DNA of 39,645 nt from Methanosuratincolales archaeon. Its GTDB lineage: Archaea; Thermoproteota; Methanomethylicia; Methanomethylicales; Methanomethylicaceae. The position numbers were made by a program, and so were the translations under genes. Shown piece after piece: positions 25,788-39,645 of this stretch (within the stretch, counting starts at the first letter, position 1; each line of letters starts with the position of its first letter). A model generated the notes under the pieces. It saw only the letters and a list, made by a program, of their open reading frames with translations. It did no database searches and had not been told where the DNA came from. Location of the stretch: the NCBI GenBank assembly GCA_014361445.1, contig JACIVQ010000002.1, positions 24,939 to 64,583 on the forward strand. Reading direction: 5' to 3'.

Positions 25788-26563
25788 TGGATATGAAAGA
25801 GGCAGCAGAAAAGATCTACAAGTATGTCAAACCCAAGTCCCGGGTAGTTGGTATAAAGTTTTTGAAAAGTAGGGGAGAGGCAGAGGGAATACTTAAGGTT
25901 TTGAGGAGGCCTAGAAAGAGGCTCACCATCTGTCAGATCATAAATACTGCGAGGCTTTACGGATGGACTTGGACGGTATTTCCTGAGGACGCAGATTGTG
26001 TGCTTGGATGTTCGGTCCTTGGGCTGAGAGAGCTTGATGAAAGTTTTCAGAGCGGGGAGATCTTCACAAAGCTCGGATATGTTAAGGATAGAGAAGTCGC
26101 GAAGAAGTTTGCGGATTCAGTGCCTAAAATTAAAGAGAGAAAAGAGGGGTTTGTAGTCGGGCCTCTGGAGGGGCTCGAAGTTGAGCCTGACCTGATACTC
26201 ATATACGGCAACGGCGCTCAGATGATGAGAGTCATTAACGGGGCAGTCTATGCGACTGGCGAGAGGCTCACCTTTGGTGCCATAGGCGATATAGGTATAT
26301 GTGGTGATGGCGTTGCTGAGGCTTACAACACACAAAAACCACAGTTGGTCGTTGCTTGTTACGGAGAGAGGAGGTTCGGGCACACTTCGGACGACGAGAT
26401 AGCCATGGTCATACCATTCAGGTACTTAGAAAAAGTTGTGGAGGGGTTGGAGAAGACACACAACGCAGGGATCAGGTACCCGATCCCCATAGCCGCAACC
26501 ATTGCCGAATTGGAAATGCCGGAAGTTTTGAAAGTCCAGCCTAAGGAGAAAGGGCAGCCCTGA
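25787..26563 (+). CDS. DUF169 family protein
   Basis: SRVVGIKFLK...KRLTICQIINTARLYGWTWTVFPEDADCVLGCSVLGL. Start placed at ATG 25787, which overlaps the ahcY stop (TGATG); the track start is 25766. Confidence 0.75.
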   Translation: MDMKEAAEKIYKYVKPKSRVVGIKFLKSRGEAEGILKVLRRPRKRLTICQIINTARLYGWTWTVFPEDADCVLGCSVLGLRELDESFQSGEIFTKLGYVKDREVAKKFADSVPKIKERKEGFVVGPLEGLEVEPDLILIYGNGAQMMRVINGAVYATGERLTFGAIGDIGICGDGVAEAYNTQKPQLVVACYGERRFGHTSDDEIAMVIPFRYLEKVVEGLEKTHNAGIRYPIPIAATIAELEMPEVLKVQPKEKGQP

Positions 26564-27545
26564 CCATAGCCTTGAGGTTCCTTGTGGGTGTGCGCGGTGC
26601 TATCCCGCAACTCGGTGCCAGGATGTCAACCCCTGAAGCTATCGCCTGCTTTGAGGCCTTGAAGACCTCTTCCTCTGTACCTGTCAATAGAACGCCTGCA
26701 GAGGGGATGTTCCCAACAATTGCAACCCTTTTGTCCTTTAGGATGGATTTTGCGGTTGACAAGTCGACCTTTTCCTCTATGCTCAGAGCGGAGAACCCAC
26801 AGTCTGCCATGTGGTTCAGAATAGGTGTGGCGTTCCCACATATGTGCAGGATTGACTTCCCTGCTGCACTTGCGACGTTTTTAAGGGGATTTTTGGAGAA
26901 CTTCTCGAACATCCTCGGGCTTAGAACAGAGGGTGATGCTGTTGGGTCAGCAGGAGCGATAATATCTGCGCCCTCTTTTACGAGGGCTTTGGTGTAAATG
27001 ACACAAGCCTCCTCTGCGGCAGCCATGTATTTCATGACCTCGTCTGGTTTTTTAATCATCATTAGGCAGAGGCGCTCCACGCCAAGAAGGTGACCTGCCA
27101 ATGTGGTGGGACCTTCGAACCCCACGATGAGTGGTACGTCAAACTTCATATCTTTAATTTTGTGTATGGCTTCGAAGATTGTCTGGACCCTTCTGCTTTC
27201 CAAGATTTTTTCTGCAGTAGGGGTTTTGCCTTGGTCATATAGGCTTTTTGCGATCGCGGGCTGGCGATCGTTCCTCCCCCGATCTATTATGCACCCCATA
27301 GACTCGGCCAAGACTGTAAGGCAGAAGGGTATCCGGACTCCTTCAAGACCAGCTACAGTGTGAGCGGCAGATGCCAATTTTGCCATGAGATCTGGATCAA
27401 AGCTTGCATCGGGCCAATAAGCCCCAGAAGCCTCCATCAGTTCACAGGTTCCAGTTTGAGTCGCCGAAAGGACGGACGGACGGTCGACGCTTTCATGATT
27501 CAAAATTCTGAATGTGCGTTCTTTTGGTGTCATATTTCTCACCAA
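26541..27545 (-). CDS. MtaA/CmuA-type methyltransferase (uroporphyrinogen decarboxylase fold)
   Basis: MTPKERTFRILNHESVDRPSV, ILHICGNATPILNHM (HxC zinc ligands), GVDILAPSCGIAP (distal Cys). Confidence 0.88.
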   Translation of the reverse strand: MVRNMTPKERTFRILNHESVDRPSVLSATQTGTCELMEASGAYWPDASFDPDLMAKLASAAHTVAGLEGVRIPFCLTVLAESMGCIIDRGRNDRQPAIAKSLYDQGKTPTAEKILESRRVQTIFEAIHKIKDMKFDVPLIVGFEGPTTLAGHLLGVERLCLMMIKKPDEVMKYMAAAEEACVIYTKALVKEGADIIAPADPTASPSVLSPRMFEKFSKNPLKNVASAAGKSILHICGNATPILNHMADCGFSALSIEEKVDLSTAKSILKDKRVAIVGNIPSAGVLLTGTEEEVFKASKQAIASGVDILAPSCGIAPRTPTRNLKAMVRAALSP

Positions 27546-32517: not shown

Positions 32518-33264
32518 TTATTTTTGTGTGTGGGCGTGCGGTCTCCCTATTGGACAGACCTTAATGCATATGCCACAAATTGGTGCGGCGTATGCTGCTT
32601 GGTAGGTCTTTTGGGCGAACATCTGCTTGAATCTGTCCAATCTTGCTGCACATTTCTGGTGATCAAAGATCTCTTCACGAGCTGAAGGGTAAAAGTCAAA
32701 TTCTGAGTACTTTAAGGCTCCAGAAGGGCATGATTCTACACATAGTCTGCAATTACCACATTGGTTCTTTAGAGGTTTGCCAGGTTTGAGGGGCATATCG
32801 GTTAGTACTGTTCCTAGACGCAACCGTGGACCATAGACAGGGTTTACCAGGAGACCGTTGCGACCGATCCACCCGACCCCGGCGGCGCATGCAAAGGCTT
32901 TGTGCGAGGCGTGCCCGAGTTCATTCAAAAGGTCTACCCTAAGCGAGGCAGGGATGACAAGAGCAGAATACCCATTCTCCATGATCCACCCGGATAATTT
33001 CAAGGTTATCGAATCGATCATTGCGTTGGCAGAATGGTACGCGTGGGCGTACAATATTCCAGGATCTTCGATGGTTATGCCATCCACAGCCCTGTTGGGA
33101 AGAGGGACGCCAACGGATATCGCATATCTGTAATGGTCTAACAAGACGCCTCCGAAAGTTGGAAGACCGCGTATCAGTGAGAGGTCTGCGACGCCAACCA
33201 CGCCAGCGCCTGAGGATCTCGCGAGAGAGAGAACCTCCCCAGTATTTTTAGAACGGTTTTCCAA
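32518..33264 (-). CDS. Double [4Fe-4S] QueG-like iron-sulfur protein
   Basis: AAGVGWIGRNGLLVNPVYGPRLRLGTVLTDMPLKPGKPLKNQCGNCRLCVESCPSGAL...CGICIKVCPIG. Confidence 0.8.
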   Translation of the reverse strand: MENRSKNTGEVLSLARSSGAGVVGVADLSLIRGLPTFGGVLLDHYRYAISVGVPLPNRAVDGITIEDPGILYAHAYHSANAMIDSITLKLSGWIMENGYSALVIPASLRVDLLNELGHASHKAFACAAGVGWIGRNGLLVNPVYGPRLRLGTVLTDMPLKPGKPLKNQCGNCRLCVESCPSGALKYSEFDFYPSAREEIFDHQKCAARLDRFKQMFAQKTYQAAYAAPICGICIKVCPIGRPHAHTQK

Positions 33265-33385: not shown

Positions 33386-34048
33386 TTAAATAACTTTAAC
33401 CAACCGTCCGTTCATCAGGTTAAATATTTTGTCTGCCCCCTCAATTAGAGATTGCTCTAGTGTGGTGACTATGAAAAGTGATTGAGTCTCTCTTTGCTTC
33501 CTCTTTATAATGCTGGCTATTTTTTTCGAGTTCTCTAGATCCAGATGGGCTGTTGGCTCATCAAGTATGACAATCGGTGGAGAACCTATAATTGTTTGGG
33601 CGAGGCAAACACGCTCATACTCGCCACCGCTAAGTTGTGCTGGTTTGTGGTCCATCCTAGCAGATAGACCGACCTCATCCAGAAGCTCCTTAGCGGATTG
33701 AATAGCTTTATCCCTATCAACGAAATTGAAGAGTAGCGGCAGGGCTACGTTCTCCAAGATTGTCAATTGGGGTATTAATACTGGGTCTTGTGGCTTGAAG
33801 CCAATTTTCTTTCTCCTGAACCATGCAAGCTCGTAGGCACCTAGACGAGAAATCTCTAACCCATCTATGAAGACCGAGCCAGATGTAGGACTCTCAAGTC
33901 CAGAGATTATGCGGATCAGTGTGGTCTTTCCAGCACCAGATGGCCCTGCTATGACAACGATCCCCCTCTCTGGAAAATCAATAGTTAAAGAGTCTAGTGC
34001 TATAACCTCCTTTCCCGCAACCACATAGCGCTTGGAGACTGAGTCCAC
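33386..34048 (-). CDS. ABC transporter ATP-binding protein (LolD/MacB-like)
   Basis: GPSGAGKTTLIRIISGL Walker A, LSGGEYERVCLAQ signature, IVILDEPTAHLD Walker B. Confidence 0.93.
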   Translation of the reverse strand: MDSVSKRYVVAGKEVIALDSLTIDFPERGIVVIAGPSGAGKTTLIRIISGLESPTSGSVFIDGLEISRLGAYELAWFRRKKIGFKPQDPVLIPQLTILENVALPLLFNFVDRDKAIQSAKELLDEVGLSARMDHKPAQLSGGEYERVCLAQTIIGSPPIVILDEPTAHLDLENSKKIASIIKRKQRETQSLFIVTTLEQSLIEGADKIFNLMNGRLVKVI

Positions 34049-34086: not shown

Positions 34087-34737
34087 TTATTTGGCGGTTA
34101 AGCTCCTCACTATCCCAACTGCCTCTGAGGCATCCTTCCCCCAGCTGTCCGCGCCTATAGATCTGGCGTATTCCATCGTCGTGGGCGCTCCGCCTATCAT
34201 GATCTTAACCTTGTCCCTGTACCCTTCGCTCACTAGGAGGTCGACCACCCTCTTCATGCCGGGCATTGTGGTGGTCATAAGGGCGGACATCCCTATGACC
34301 TCGGCCCCGTGCTCCTTGACAGCCTTCACGAACTCCTGCAGTGGGACATCCTTACCCAAGTCAATGACCCTGAACCCAGCGCTGTCGAGCATTATCTTGA
34401 CCAAGTTCTTGCCGATGTCGTGTATGTCACCCTCCACAACCCCAAGTACCACTGTTATGGGCTTCGCTGTCTTGTCCACTTTGATGTGGGGCTTTAGTAT
34501 CTCCACAGCCACATTCATGGCGCTCGCAGAGAGTAGGACTTCAGGGACATAGTACTCGCCCTTCTCGTAGAGCTCGCTAACAACCTTCATGCCCTCGGCT
34601 AGTCCCTTCATTATAGCCTCGTATGCGTCTATGTTGTTCTTGATGGTCTCCTCAGCCCATTTCTTAGCCCCTTCCTCGTCGCCGTCGACCACACACTTTG
34701 CAAGGTTCTTGAATATTTCCTCTTTATCCATATTCAC
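34087..34737 (-). CDS. Methyltransferase cognate corrinoid protein (MtbC/MtaC-like)
   Basis: VEGDIHDIGKNLVKIMLDSAGFRVIDLGKDVP (DxHxxG cobalamin-binding motif); N-terminal helical cap domain. Confidence 0.93.
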   Translation of the reverse strand: MNMDKEEIFKNLAKCVVDGDEEGAKKWAEETIKNNIDAYEAIMKGLAEGMKVVSELYEKGEYYVPEVLLSASAMNVAVEILKPHIKVDKTAKPITVVLGVVEGDIHDIGKNLVKIMLDSAGFRVIDLGKDVPLQEFVKAVKEHGAEVIGMSALMTTTMPGMKRVVDLLVSEGYRDKVKIMIGGAPTTMEYARSIGADSWGKDASEAVGIVRSLTAK

Positions 34738-34751
34738 ACCTCCTATTGATT

Positions 34752-35762
34752 CTAAATCTCTTTAGTGCTATCACAAAGCGACTTCACGTTCTCAATCGGT
34801 GAATCTATTGGTATATCGCAACCCGCTCCTAACAAGAAACCTATTTTGCCCGCTCGTCTAATACATTCTTTCGAGGCAGCGATGATGTCTATTGGTTTTT
34901 TCATCAATATGTCAGTAGTACTAACATTGCCCATTATTGGCACTTTCTTATTCAAAATGTCCTTTGCAACAACAAGATCTACTTTTGTATCTAAACTCAT
35001 GAGATCAGGCGAGAGATCCAATATTACATTAAGCCTATCTGATGTGTTTCCGCAGATGTGAAGAAATGCCTTTAGACCTAAATCTCGCGTCTTCTTTAAT
35101 ATCGCTTTAGTATATGGTGCTACAAAATTTTTAAAATGCCTTGGGGATATTAAGTCGGCCGATGCTGTAGGATCACACCAAAATATTGCATCAACTCCAA
35201 TTTCTGCCGAAAATTTTGCGTATTCTCTTAATACCTCAGTGGCAAAACTGAGAAGTTTATGTACGTCTTCTGGTCGTTTAAGGATATCTAACATTAGTGC
35301 TTCTACTCCTCTCAGTTCACCTGCTAGAGTAAAAGGAAGTGTAAGCGTCACATATACATAGCGTTCTGCACCTAATGTTTTTTTAAGATGATGTGCTACC
35401 TCAAAGTTATTTTTGGTTCTTGAGTGCTTGCTCAAGTCGGGCATAGAAAGCCTATCAATATCTTCCGGAACTTTGACTATGCGGTCAATCGTTACAGGGT
35501 TACCTCTATCTGGAAAATGCACTTTACAGCCACATGCTTCAACGGGGGCTAACCAGTCCCATAGTACTTCAAGTCCATCAAAAGGCACTTTGTTAAGGAT
35601 ATTGAGTTGCGCCTCTGCTCCTCTCATTGGATCTTTGAAGATCTCCGAGATCTTTGTCTCATATACCCCAACTGCCCAAAAACCCTGAAAAGGTGGAAGT
35701 ACTGGGACAAAATCCACTCCCTCAAAAGAAAGCGCTGCCTCAACTCTTTCCCGCGGTGTCAT
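34752..35762 (-). CDS. MtaA/CmuA/UroD-like methyltransferase
   Basis: MTPRERVEAALSFEGVDFVPV, FLHICGNTSDRLN (HxC), GFLLGAGCDIPIDSP (distal Cys). Confidence 0.88.
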   Translation of the reverse strand: MTPRERVEAALSFEGVDFVPVLPPFQGFWAVGVYETKISEIFKDPMRGAEAQLNILNKVPFDGLEVLWDWLAPVEACGCKVHFPDRGNPVTIDRIVKVPEDIDRLSMPDLSKHSRTKNNFEVAHHLKKTLGAERYVYVTLTLPFTLAGELRGVEALMLDILKRPEDVHKLLSFATEVLREYAKFSAEIGVDAIFWCDPTASADLISPRHFKNFVAPYTKAILKKTRDLGLKAFLHICGNTSDRLNVILDLSPDLMSLDTKVDLVVAKDILNKKVPIMGNVSTTDILMKKPIDIIAASKECIRRAGKIGFLLGAGCDIPIDSPIENVKSLCDSTKEI

Positions 35763-35785
35763 TATATCACCTTAAAAAAAAGAGA

Positions 35786-37024
35786 TTAAAGGGATTTTTC
35801 AATTAACTCTAGTAAATCGGCGACTTGAATTTTTGCTCCGATTGCCTTTGCAGAGTCGTCTAAGTTTCTCCAACAGAACGGGCATGTAGATACTAACATT
35901 TCTGCGCCTGTCTCTAAAGCTTCTTTGATTCGCTCTTCTCCAGTCCAAAGTGCAAAATCAGGGAATGCTGATTTTACACCACCGCCTGCACCACAACACC
36001 ATGCGACATTTCTATTTCGCTCCATTTCAACAAGCTCGACTCCAGGAATCGCCTTTAATAATTTTCTAGGTTCTTCATAAAGGGCTTTGTCTCCGAGGTT
36101 TCTCCCAATGTGGCATGGATCGTGATATGTTACTTTAACGTCTACTTTGCTATTTAGATTAAGCTTTCCTTTATTTAGTAAATCGACTAACAGTTGCACG
36201 GAATGCAAAACTTTAAGGTTATGCTCTATGCCAAGAACTTTGCCGTATTTTTCATTGGTTAAGTCATAAGACCAGACTTTGTAGCAACCAGCACATGACG
36301 TTACTATAGTTTTAGCCCCTGTATTCTCAATCTCCGAAATGTTATGTTTTGCAATGTCAGAGACAAGATCCCAATGTCCTGTTCTCAGGAGAGGCGAGCC
36401 ACAACAATACTCGTCATCCAAGACAGTAAAGTTTAGTCCAAGTTCTTTAAATACTCTCGCAGTAGCTATTGCAATGTTTTTCTGTCTGTAAGATGCGGTA
36501 CATCCAACAAAGTACACAAAATCGGGTTTTTTAGAGAGCTTCGTATCGCCAATGGCTTCCTTTAGCCAAGCAGTTCGCTCCTCGTGTTTCTCGTCATACG
36601 GATTATGTTTATTAGCTATCGCCTGCGCGAATCTTTTGTGTGCTTCTAGACCAAATCCATTACAAATGGCATCCCTTCGAATGGCTTCCAATAAAGGTAT
36701 TGCCAGTTCGTATATTGGGCGTGTCCCATTGGTCTCGAAGACATGGCACTGTTCGGCACAATTACCACATAAAGTGCATTCAAAGAATGGATTGACTATA
36801 TCTTTTGACCACTTTATTCTTCCTTGGATTAGGCCCATTGCCAATTGCATCTTTCCACTCAAATAATAAGGATCGAACTTCTTCCACTCTCCACTGGGGC
36901 ATACTGGATTCCAGAACTGCGACTGGTACCAAGTTCTACATGTGCCGCAGTGTATGCATTGCTGTGGAACGTTGCTAGCCTTTAGCTTGCTTTCAATATG
37001 TTGGAACGTTTTTGGGTAACTCAT
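35786..37024 (-). CDS. HdrD/GlpC-like (Fe-S)-binding protein with two CCG domains
   Basis: CIHCGTC and CTLCGNCAEQCH ferredoxin motifs; DDEYCCGSPLLRTG and NVAWCCGAGGGV CCG motifs. Confidence 0.9.
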   Translation of the reverse strand: MSYPKTFQHIESKLKASNVPQQCIHCGTCRTWYQSQFWNPVCPSGEWKKFDPYYLSGKMQLAMGLIQGRIKWSKDIVNPFFECTLCGNCAEQCHVFETNGTRPIYELAIPLLEAIRRDAICNGFGLEAHKRFAQAIANKHNPYDEKHEERTAWLKEAIGDTKLSKKPDFVYFVGCTASYRQKNIAIATARVFKELGLNFTVLDDEYCCGSPLLRTGHWDLVSDIAKHNISEIENTGAKTIVTSCAGCYKVWSYDLTNEKYGKVLGIEHNLKVLHSVQLLVDLLNKGKLNLNSKVDVKVTYHDPCHIGRNLGDKALYEEPRKLLKAIPGVELVEMERNRNVAWCCGAGGGVKSAFPDFALWTGEERIKEALETGAEMLVSTCPFCWRNLDDSAKAIGAKIQVADLLELIEKSL

Positions 37025-37036
37025 TTTTATACCTCC

Positions 37037-38527
37037 TCAAAAATCCAATTGACCTGGATTCATAATTCGGTTCGGATCTAGGATCTTTTTTATTGTTCTT
37101 ATGATGTTCATAGCTGCTGGGTCTGTTCCTAACCAGTTAAGTCTTGCGAAGTACGGTGGTGCTTTGTATAGAATTGTTCCATGGGCTCTCATGACCTCGC
37201 CAATCTCTCTTAGGCATTTTCTATGTTTTTCAACGATTTCTGGCGAGTCATCTTTACTACCGAAGATGTTGTAACGAATGATACCCTCATGTCCATGATC
37301 CATTAATCTGTTATATGCCTGTATAGGATGTCCTGCTTGCGTATATCCGTATTTGTCGTAAACCTTCTCGACTGCGCGATATATTTCTGCATTTTTTGAG
37401 GGTGGCGCATATCCTCCGACCCATTGCGCCCTCCCTCCTCTCGCTCCGCTAATATCATTGGAAAGTTGTACTGGTAAATATTTAAAGTACCTTATTTGAT
37501 CCCCCTTACTAAAGCTTTTTATGCCCTCCTCGAACAGTGTGAGTTTTCCGCCACCTTTCTCCGTAATACTTTTGACAATTTCATCTTTTGCCTCCAACTC
37601 TTTTTCAGTATTTGCAGTAAACGATACCCACGAAGATAGTTCAGGCTCACCAGGTCTGCGTCCCTCTGAAAAAGGCAATTTCTCTCCTGCTTCCACTCTT
37701 CCCCAAGCCCAATTATTTGAGGCAATATCGTCAATTATCCCTGTACGCGCCAATTCCCGCTGGATCTTGAAACCCCTTTCTACGGTGTCTGCATCCATAA
37801 AATAGTCCAATCTGTACGGTCTTTTAGGATATAGTTTTATACTCGCTTTCGTTACAATCCCCGTGGTTCCTGCCCATCCTATAAATAGACCAATAAGTCC
37901 GAAATCTGGAAGAGCAGCATGGTGATTCCAGTGAGGCGAAGACATGGCAGAACCAGTTCTGATTATTTCTCCAGTTGGAAGAACTGCTTCGAATGCATTC
38001 ACAAAATAGGAAGCGTCTCCATAGGCCATAGATAAATCAGTCATACCATACATCAAAGATGACGCAACGTATCCTGTGGCAGGTGGTGCGTAAGTAACAG
38101 GGACTCTTAGGTGTGGATAATGTCTATTGACGTACCCCACAACGTCCGCATAAGTAATTCCTGCTTCAACAAGTATGTATTGATCTTCCTCATTCACCTC
38201 AAGAACTTTATTCATTCGCCTCATATCTAAAACTATTCCGCCTTCACGGGGAGTTGCAAGGGCACCAACGCTCAAATTTGCAACCCATGGCACTACGGGT
38301 ATATGTTCCCGATTTGCGAGTCTAACAATGTCCTGAACTTCTTCTGTTGTTTTAGGCATTACCACAAAATCTGCCTTTCCTGACCGTTCAAACGTTATGA
38401 AGTCCTCGGAGTATGTGTATAGAACAGCTTCGGAATCGCTGACATATCTTGATCCAACAATCGCTGCTAACCGTTCGTAGATTTTAGAGTTCTTGGCTCC
38501 GGATTGCACATAAGAAGATTCCCCCAT
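37037..38527 (-). CDS. FAD-linked oxidase (PCMH-type, GlcD / 4-cresol dehydrogenase-like)
   Basis: DFVVMPKTTEEVQDIVRLANREHIPVVPWVANLSVGALATPREGGIVLDMRRMNKVLEV; C-terminal KKILDPNRIMNPGQLDF. Confidence 0.9.
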   Translation of the reverse strand: MGESSYVQSGAKNSKIYERLAAIVGSRYVSDSEAVLYTYSEDFITFERSGKADFVVMPKTTEEVQDIVRLANREHIPVVPWVANLSVGALATPREGGIVLDMRRMNKVLEVNEEDQYILVEAGITYADVVGYVNRHYPHLRVPVTYAPPATGYVASSLMYGMTDLSMAYGDASYFVNAFEAVLPTGEIIRTGSAMSSPHWNHHAALPDFGLIGLFIGWAGTTGIVTKASIKLYPKRPYRLDYFMDADTVERGFKIQRELARTGIIDDIASNNWAWGRVEAGEKLPFSEGRRPGEPELSSWVSFTANTEKELEAKDEIVKSITEKGGGKLTLFEEGIKSFSKGDQIRYFKYLPVQLSNDISGARGGRAQWVGGYAPPSKNAEIYRAVEKVYDKYGYTQAGHPIQAYNRLMDHGHEGIIRYNIFGSKDDSPEIVEKHRKCLREIGEVMRAHGTILYKAPPYFARLNWLGTDPAAMNIIRTIKKILDPNRIMNPGQLDF

Positions 38528-38787: not shown

Positions 38788-39174
38788 TTATTTATTAATA
38801 TGTGTTATACTTAATAATTTTAAATCAGAAGCTGTTAATATTATGCTTAATTCTTTATCTGATTTTATTAGTTCTTTGCTCGATTGTATTAAAGGATCTA
38901 ACTCCGACTTAATGATACGTCGTCTTAGTCCAGAATAATCTCCATATGGTAAACCCGTGATTTCACTCAAACGTTTGGCAAAAATCTCCAATTCTCTATA
39001 AGGCAAACCATAAAGTTGTCTAATTAAGGCTAGTAGTTGTATATACCTTTCAGATAATTTGAATGGTCGTCCTTTTTTCCCTTTGTTATTTAATTTTAGT
39101 GATTGGTGATATTTTCGAATAAACTCTGCTTCGATTACCAACACTCCTCTAATTATGTTTTCTTTCTCATTCAT
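38788..39174 (-). pseudogene. Degenerate N-terminal fragment of a DDE (IS5-like) transposase
   Basis: KGRPFKLSERYIQLLALIRQLYGLPYRELEIFAKRLSEITGLPYGDYSGLRRRI then truncation (ILTASDLKLLSITHINK*) where a DDE catalytic core would continue; followed by extremely AT-rich sequence. Confidence 0.65.
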
Positions 39175-39243: not shown

Positions 39244-39516
39244 TTATCCTCCGATGACCGGTAGTAATATATCTACAATGTCTTCAGTCCTAATCTTTGT
39301 CCTCAATCCATTTATAAACATGCAGTGCCTGCCATTAATAAGGATATTTAAGTCGCTTCTAACACTTTCCTTTTCCATCAAAAGTTCTTTATAAATAGTG
39401 TTCCTGTCCGATATAAATTTTATTAAATCTTCAATATTTCCTTCCCACGAATCCAACCGCACCTCTCTAAATTCTCTTGGAATATTGGGTCCATGGAGCC
39501 TAACTATCATTAGCAT
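39244..39516 (-). CDS. MoaD/ThiS-like ubiquitin-fold protein with C-terminal Gly-Gly
   Basis: 90 aa; ends ...GLRTKIRTEDIVDILLPVIGG*; adjacent to the AOR C-terminus. Confidence 0.75.
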   Translation of the reverse strand: MLMIVRLHGPNIPREFREVRLDSWEGNIEDLIKFISDRNTIYKELLMEKESVRSDLNILINGRHCMFINGLRTKIRTEDIVDILLPVIGG

Positions 39517-39521
39517 GTCCT

Positions 39522-39645
39522 CTATATTTTTAAATCTAAATTCTTTATGGTATCTTCTGTTGGAATGCCCTCTTTATTCCAACCCCTTATCTCATAATAT
39601 AAATTGAGAAGCTTCTCAAAATCCTCAGCACTTATTCGCCATTTT
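39522..39645 (-). CDS. Aldehyde:ferredoxin oxidoreductase family, C-terminal end only (window edge)
   Basis: Manual translation KWRISAEDFEKLLNLYYEIRGWNKEGIPTEDTIKNLDLKI*; typical AOR C-terminal LLxxYYxxRGWxxxGIPTxxxxxxLxL pattern. Confidence 0.75.
   Translation of the reverse strand, partial: KWRISAEDFEKLLNLYYEIRGWNKEGIPTEDTIKNLDLKI

Follow-up and report, generated by a model that had tools for sequence, protein, structure and literature searches.

On balance, we favour the explanation that a cluster of four genes in a methanogen of the class Methanomethylicia joins parts of two homologous modules of one design, and that it belongs to a module in which a methyltransferase of the thiol type is coupled with a heterodisulfide-linked oxidation of a substrate. 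The cluster lies in the window, i.e., the whole stretch of 39,645 nucleotides that was analysed (C12:24939-64583 of the draft genome), and had been read from the sequence alone as one compact operon of an FAD-linked oxidase, an HdrD-like protein, a UROD-like methyltransferase and a corrinoid protein. That these four genes form one unit was not borne out: the corrinoid gene comes from a neighbouring module, and the conserved partners of the other three are genes for an aldehyde:ferredoxin oxidoreductase (AOR), a MoaD-like protein and a permease. Our description of the locus draws on genes, motifs, folds, synteny and phylogeny, and in these the swap of partner at the corrinoid gene is seen.

The four genes and their upstream neighbours

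All four open reading frames lie on the minus strand, separated by gaps of 12, 23 and 14 nt, and Pfam matches uphold the protein families to which they had been assigned. The first gene (37037..38527, 496 aa) encodes an FAD-linked oxidoreductase of the VAO/PCMH-D-lactate dehydrogenase fold, identified by Pfam (FAD_binding_4 and FAD-oxidase_C), profile and fold matches. It is followed by the gene for an HdrD-like protein (35786..37024, 412 aa; two CCG domains and Fer4 in Pfam) with an N-terminal Fe-S ferredoxin part and two complete CCG motifs, then by that for a UROD-fold methyltransferase of the MtaA/CmuA family (34752..35762, 336 aa; URO-D) and finally by that for a corrinoid methyl-carrier protein (COR; 34087..34737, 216 aa) with B12-binding and B12-binding_2 domains and a DIHDIG motif. 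An in-frame ATG at 34731, which has a good Shine-Dalgarno sequence and lies directly 3' of AGGAGGTG, is probably the start of COR, and the gap between UROD and COR would then be 20 nt. Upstream of FAD the operon extends beyond the genes that the sequence-only reading had listed, with a fragment of an IS5-type transposase, a MoaD/ThiS-like gene (39244..39516, minus strand) and the 3' end of an AOR gene (39525..39645, minus strand; AFOR_C profile 355-385) that is cut by the contig end. The truncated IS5-family transposase gene (38788..39174, minus strand), between MoaD and FAD, sits in an AT-rich stretch of about 35% GC and is a trace of mobility beside the module.

A neighbourhood search confirmed FAD-HdrD-UROD, in which FAD is the first gene, as a conserved cluster that is kept in two other genera of the family, in the genomes G006 (73, 69 and 58% identity for FAD, HdrD and UROD, respectively) and G011 (about 74-75, 70 and 63%). 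A single-sequence query against the genome contigs gave two related loci; an alignment query would have reached further. Upstream of the trio, G006 carries MoaD (52% identical to the MoaD-like protein of the window), AOR and a divergent amino-acid permease. The AOR gene that is cut in the window continues on the host contig C11, which shares 39 bp with the contig of the window; joined across the two, its frame is open for about 590 aa and its product is 69% identical to the AOR of G006, and the permease encoded next on C11 is 60% identical to that of G006. In both G006 and the host, the conserved module is larger than the trio and comprises an amino-acid permease and, divergently, AOR-MoaD-FAD-HdrD-UROD (module A). 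Module A is patchy in the family. Among 400 sampled Thermoproteota genomes, this FAD subtype was found in no other species at more than 50% identity, and its looser relatives in G395 (50%) and G036 (42%) belong to FAD-HdrD pairs without UROD. In a different Thermoproteota family, an FAD-HdrD pair adjoins two AOR-family genes, again without UROD (G359 C3, L159, 2326-9230), and the association of AOR with FAD-HdrD may be a wider one.

Two upstream contexts of the corrinoid gene

The paralogous module B has the layout AOR-MoaD-UROD', continued by COR-ABC where the contig goes on, in eight genomes including the host (C27, C86 and C12). Its full design, AOR-MoaD-UROD'-COR-ABC-RDH-like, is spread over several genera; in most genomes an arginase-family gene and a further pair, FAD3-HdrD3 (FAD'-HdrD'), lie nearby, and G018 and G021 carry UROD'-COR-ABC without AOR. 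Near module B there is also a gene for an aminotransferase, classed as branched-chain-type by its sequence alone. The COR of the window falls within a 9-member clade (support 98 in a quick tree without bootstrap), the other members of which all stand beside UROD' and ABC. Phylogeny and synteny therefore point to UROD', not the trio UROD, as the partner of COR, and the two genes 3' of COR in the window are the remainder of module B. These are a gene for an ABC ATPase (33386..34048, minus strand), found 3' of COR in 8/8 relatives where the pair was seen and assigned to the ancestral module, and one for a small Fe-S protein resembling the C-terminal part of reductive dehalogenase/QueG (RDH-like; 32518..33264, minus strand), which is kept near COR in relatives.

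A true, vertically inherited operon of four genes, as implied by the earlier reading, would agree with the shared strand and the short gaps, yet it is most improbable, as the relatives that bear the trio lack an adjacent COR and those that bear COR have UROD' instead. UROD adjoins COR in the host; in G006 and G011 no corrinoid gene is found 3' of the trio UROD, and that place is taken by genes for an EamA transporter and AA_synth. This arrangement in G006 and G011 also counts against our favoured explanation.

In the assembly, UROD of module A stands directly upstream of the corrinoid gene of module B, and the ribosome-binding site of COR is intact. The host contig C86, which carries MoaD-UROD', ends in 67 bp identical to window positions 34743-34677, the 5' part of COR, so that COR has two upstream contexts, UROD' and the trio. 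These reflect either two copies of COR, a strain mixture or a false join by the assembler. Contigs of G001 and G011 likewise end within about 110 bp after UROD', and such ends fit a repeat or fork at this place but prove nothing. We consider it unlikely that the trio-COR junction is an assembly artefact or the product of a strain mixture, in which the assembler crossed at the shared 5' end of COR. The two contexts with their 67 identical bases, the presence of just one COR of this type in the bin and the contig ends in G001 and G011 would all agree with such a crossing; however, at the join the ribosome-binding site is still correctly spaced, by a spacer of different sequence, and no run of N occurs, and even a chimera would need the sample to contain a copy of the trio with this COR sequence after it.

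Zinc site of the UROD-fold protein and the FAD-HdrD pair

In the UROD tree, the trio UROD forms a clade of its own with those of G006 and G011 (support 100, in a quick tree without bootstrap), outside the 45-member MtaA-type clade. Its scores fall below the curated cut-offs for MtaA (146.6 of 400), MtbA (138.5 of 600) and the mtaA_cmuA subfamily (185.5 of 235.4). The structural model (mean pLDDT 93.6) has its best fold match in MtaA of Methanosarcina mazei (4ay7/4ay8, TM 0.92), and the zinc ligands H235, C237 and C315, which align with those of MtaA 4ay7, are invariant in 16/16 aligned sequences; relative to MtsA, MtpA and OdmB, the protein was placed by zinc ligands only. It is 23-24% identical to the chloromethane methyltransferase CmuA, which likewise has a UROD-like methyltransferase domain and is fused to a corrinoid domain. 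Within the UROD superfamily, His-Cys-Cys marks S-methyltransferases, whereas O-methyltransferases have one or both Cys replaced (PMC10418091). As to the earlier suggestion of a substrate-activating UROD, the zinc site disfavours an unusual O- or N-methyl compound as its substrate, and it is best read as that of a putative thiol-methylating enzyme. Plain CoM methylases that depend on a separate B protein, e.g. MtaA, have a His-Cys-Cys site as well, and this weakens the explanation that we favour.

It had been pointed out that canonical methylotrophic modules carry a dedicated B protein and that the locus has none. The latter holds, with no B protein beside UROD and none in the genome shown to pair with COR, and UROD-corrinoid pairs without a B protein are the rule in this family. 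The former overlooks MtsAB and MtpCA, in which UROD and corrinoid proteins are functional without one (PMC7374477). The MtsAB/MtpCAP systems of Methanosarcina resemble the locus in combining a UROD-fold methyltransferase and a corrinoid protein without separate B and in their His-Cys-Cys site (MtsA was compared by zinc ligands only), and MtpCAP also has a transporter; unlike here, FAD-HdrD, AOR and MoaD are not described with them. MtaA/MtbA (SCMT) and the type 1 mlp gene clusters (type 1 MGCs) share with the locus an MtaA-like enzyme of the UROD superfamily, a corrinoid protein and a thiol-type zinc site, but these clusters contain several Mlps and a Ram/RACE protein, and the core components given for them include neither AOR nor HdrD (PMC10418091). 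A gene of 347-401 aa near both modules was considered as the missing B protein and rejected, as it encodes an arginase-family protein and not a methyltransferase.

Both CCG motifs of the HdrD-like protein (CX31CCX35CXXC and CX38CCX36CXXC) are complete with a spacing that fits the HdrD/HdrB pattern CX31-39CCX35-36CXXC, their cysteines are invariant among 13 homologues, and the closest NCBIfam match is TfrB (221 of 385 bits). The profile of the FAD family matches 4-cresol dehydrogenase (236 bits) and vanillyl-alcohol oxidases better than D-lactate dehydrogenase (180) and LctD (146), and the FAD protein remains below the GlcD equivalog cut-off (91.9 of 567.9 bits). In fold comparisons with its model (pLDDT 78.9), D-lactate dehydrogenases and VAO members score alike, with the best E-values for D-lactate dehydrogenases. 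By these profiles and folds, the protein is nearer to the VAO/4-cresol/D-lactate dehydrogenase group than to glycolate oxidase. Of the phenol-binding triad of PCMH, which we take to be Tyr95, Tyr473 and Arg474, one Tyr is apparently kept, Lys replaces Arg and the first Tyr is missing. This bears on the possibility that UROD is a substrate-activating demethylase of an O- or N-methylated compound, e.g. a lignin-type methoxy aromatic that the FAD protein and AOR also process. The profile neighbours of the FAD protein and the presence of AOR in the same module would suit such a role, which we nevertheless hold to be very unlikely in view of the incomplete triad, the D-lactate dehydrogenases as best fold matches by E-value and a His-Cys-Cys site in place of the carboxylate-substituted site of UROD O-demethylases (PMC10418091). 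Aromatic O-demethylation by a VAO-like FAD protein, AOR and UROD was accordingly rejected as a leading idea on the zinc site and the missing triad.

For this lineage, re-reduction of the heterodisulfide by a complex of GlcD and HdrD has been proposed (PMC6783470, PMC10667645). The proposal is echoed by the earlier suggestion, which remains the best reading, that the FAD and HdrD proteins act in connection with methyl transfer and oxidise either a substrate or a thiol cofactor. As in the GlcD-HdrD complexes proposed for Verstraetearchaeota, Bathyarchaeia and Korarchaeia, an FAD-linked dehydrogenase directly precedes an HdrD with intact CCG motifs; in contrast to these, the pair sits in an AOR-MoaD-UROD module and its FAD profile is nearer to 4-cresol dehydrogenase/VAO than to GlcD. 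It is also a separate subtype from the common FAD2-HdrD2 pair (about 32% identity to FAD2 and 43% to HdrD2), which occurs in nearly all family members and is followed by an arginase-like gene in G022 and in the host (contig C30, L076, 3131-7182). Arginase-family genes are likewise found close to FAD3-HdrD3 of module B and, in G006, close to the trio. It seems doubtful that FAD-HdrD is a general heterodisulfide-recycling complex of the proposed GlcD-HdrD kind, loosely clustered and with no dedicated link to a methyltransferase. FAD-HdrD stands alone in G395, G036 and G304, FAD2-HdrD2 is found in most family members and the literature proposes this very role (PMC6783470, PMC10667645); yet each of the three genera that have this FAD subtype carries UROD directly 3' of HdrD, and the paralogous module repeats AOR, MoaD and UROD.

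Methyl transfer in the host and the proposed route

The host is a methyl-reducing methanogen, and our checks of its genome comprised family searches and selected contig stretches. The genes mcrB, mcrG and mcrA are all located on C11, where mcrB begins the set some 15 kb beyond AOR; an MCR alpha match is present in 22/22 genomes of the family, and a RamA-type corrinoid activator in the host and every family member. The host genome has one MtrH homologue, and the MttB, MtaB and MtbB models gave zero matches anywhere in it. A canonical MtaA is encoded in the same window (26541-27545; 393.8 of 400 bits) with no MtaB found in the genome, and may serve other corrinoid proteins. Two MtmB-type genes on contig C53 adjoin their own corrinoid gene and have no in-frame stop, and hence no pyrrolysine; the stretch (L073, 282-8826) also encodes a possible transporter, an S-Me-THD-like protein and a hydantoinase/oxoprolinase, and could be a candidate cluster for an N-methyl hydantoin or creatinine-like substrate. 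On contig C21 (L077, 9669-12697), an HdrD-like protein gene directly precedes the genes of a corrinoid-UROD pair, the third case in which a CCG protein is associated with UROD. A second, divergent mcr cluster is carried by four relatives: COR-UROD-(96 aa)-mcrA-mcrB-mcrG, which was read up to and including mcrG in G011 (C212, L081) and was partly seen in G013 (C3, L082), G018 (C23, L028) and G021 (C112, L113). A second, ethane-type McrA has been reported from LCB019-004 (PMC10033731), and the corrinoid and UROD genes adjoining the second mcr cluster suggest a putative alkyl transfer to CoM.

For the thiol-type module that we favour, we infer an electron path, its direction and a class of substrate as follows. 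The permease would import a small, probably amino-acid-derived compound, which the FAD subunit would dehydrogenate, and HdrD would pass the electrons to CoM-S-S-CoB or a similar disulfide; AOR would oxidise the resulting aldehyde and yield reduced ferredoxin. At its His-Cys-Cys zinc, UROD would methylate coenzyme M from the methylated corrinoid protein, and it may in addition demethylate an S-methyl substrate itself, as MtsA does, and methyl-CoM would then be supplied to MCR. This mechanism is supported by the recurrence of AOR-MoaD-UROD as module B in eight genomes, most of which have FAD'-HdrD' close by, by the position of mcrBGA beyond the joined AOR on C11 and by the family-wide RamA-type activator. 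On the other hand, FAD-HdrD pairs without a methyltransferase occur across Thermoproteota, so that their tie to methyl transfer may be a loose one; methanethiol was not used by the isolate Methanosuratincola petrocarbonis (PMC12244365); and the draft genome is fragmented (1.46 Mb in 87 contigs, about 90% complete). Module A, together with its paralogue B, might even be a self-contained route to methane from one S-methylated, amino-acid-derived compound, e.g. methionine or its hydroxy or keto acid, an idea that we regard as quite unlikely. UROD and the corrinoid protein would take the methyl group to CoM, FAD-HdrD and AOR would oxidise the rest of the same molecule, and the electrons would flow to heterodisulfide and ferredoxin, so that no external H2 would be needed. 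It is speculative that methyl donor and electron donor are one and the same S-methylated, amino-acid-derived molecule, which the permease and the aminotransferase near module B would fit.

Two questions about methyl-reducing Thermoproteota methanogens meet at this locus: which substrates their many corrinoid and UROD-type genes serve, and what donates the electrons with which the proposed GlcD-HdrD complexes would reduce the heterodisulfide. The recurring AOR-MoaD-UROD arrangement, with FAD-HdrD inside or next to it, connects the two and offers a defined set of proteins to test, and the reading of the zinc site limits the methyl chemistry to transfers of the thiol (or selenol) type. The locus also serves as a warning that what looks like one operon on a single draft contig can be pieced together from different modules. 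Both modules are undescribed variants of known methane chemistry, and module A is a transferable gene set that is likely to take electrons from a small organic compound and to pass methyl groups to the methane cofactor.
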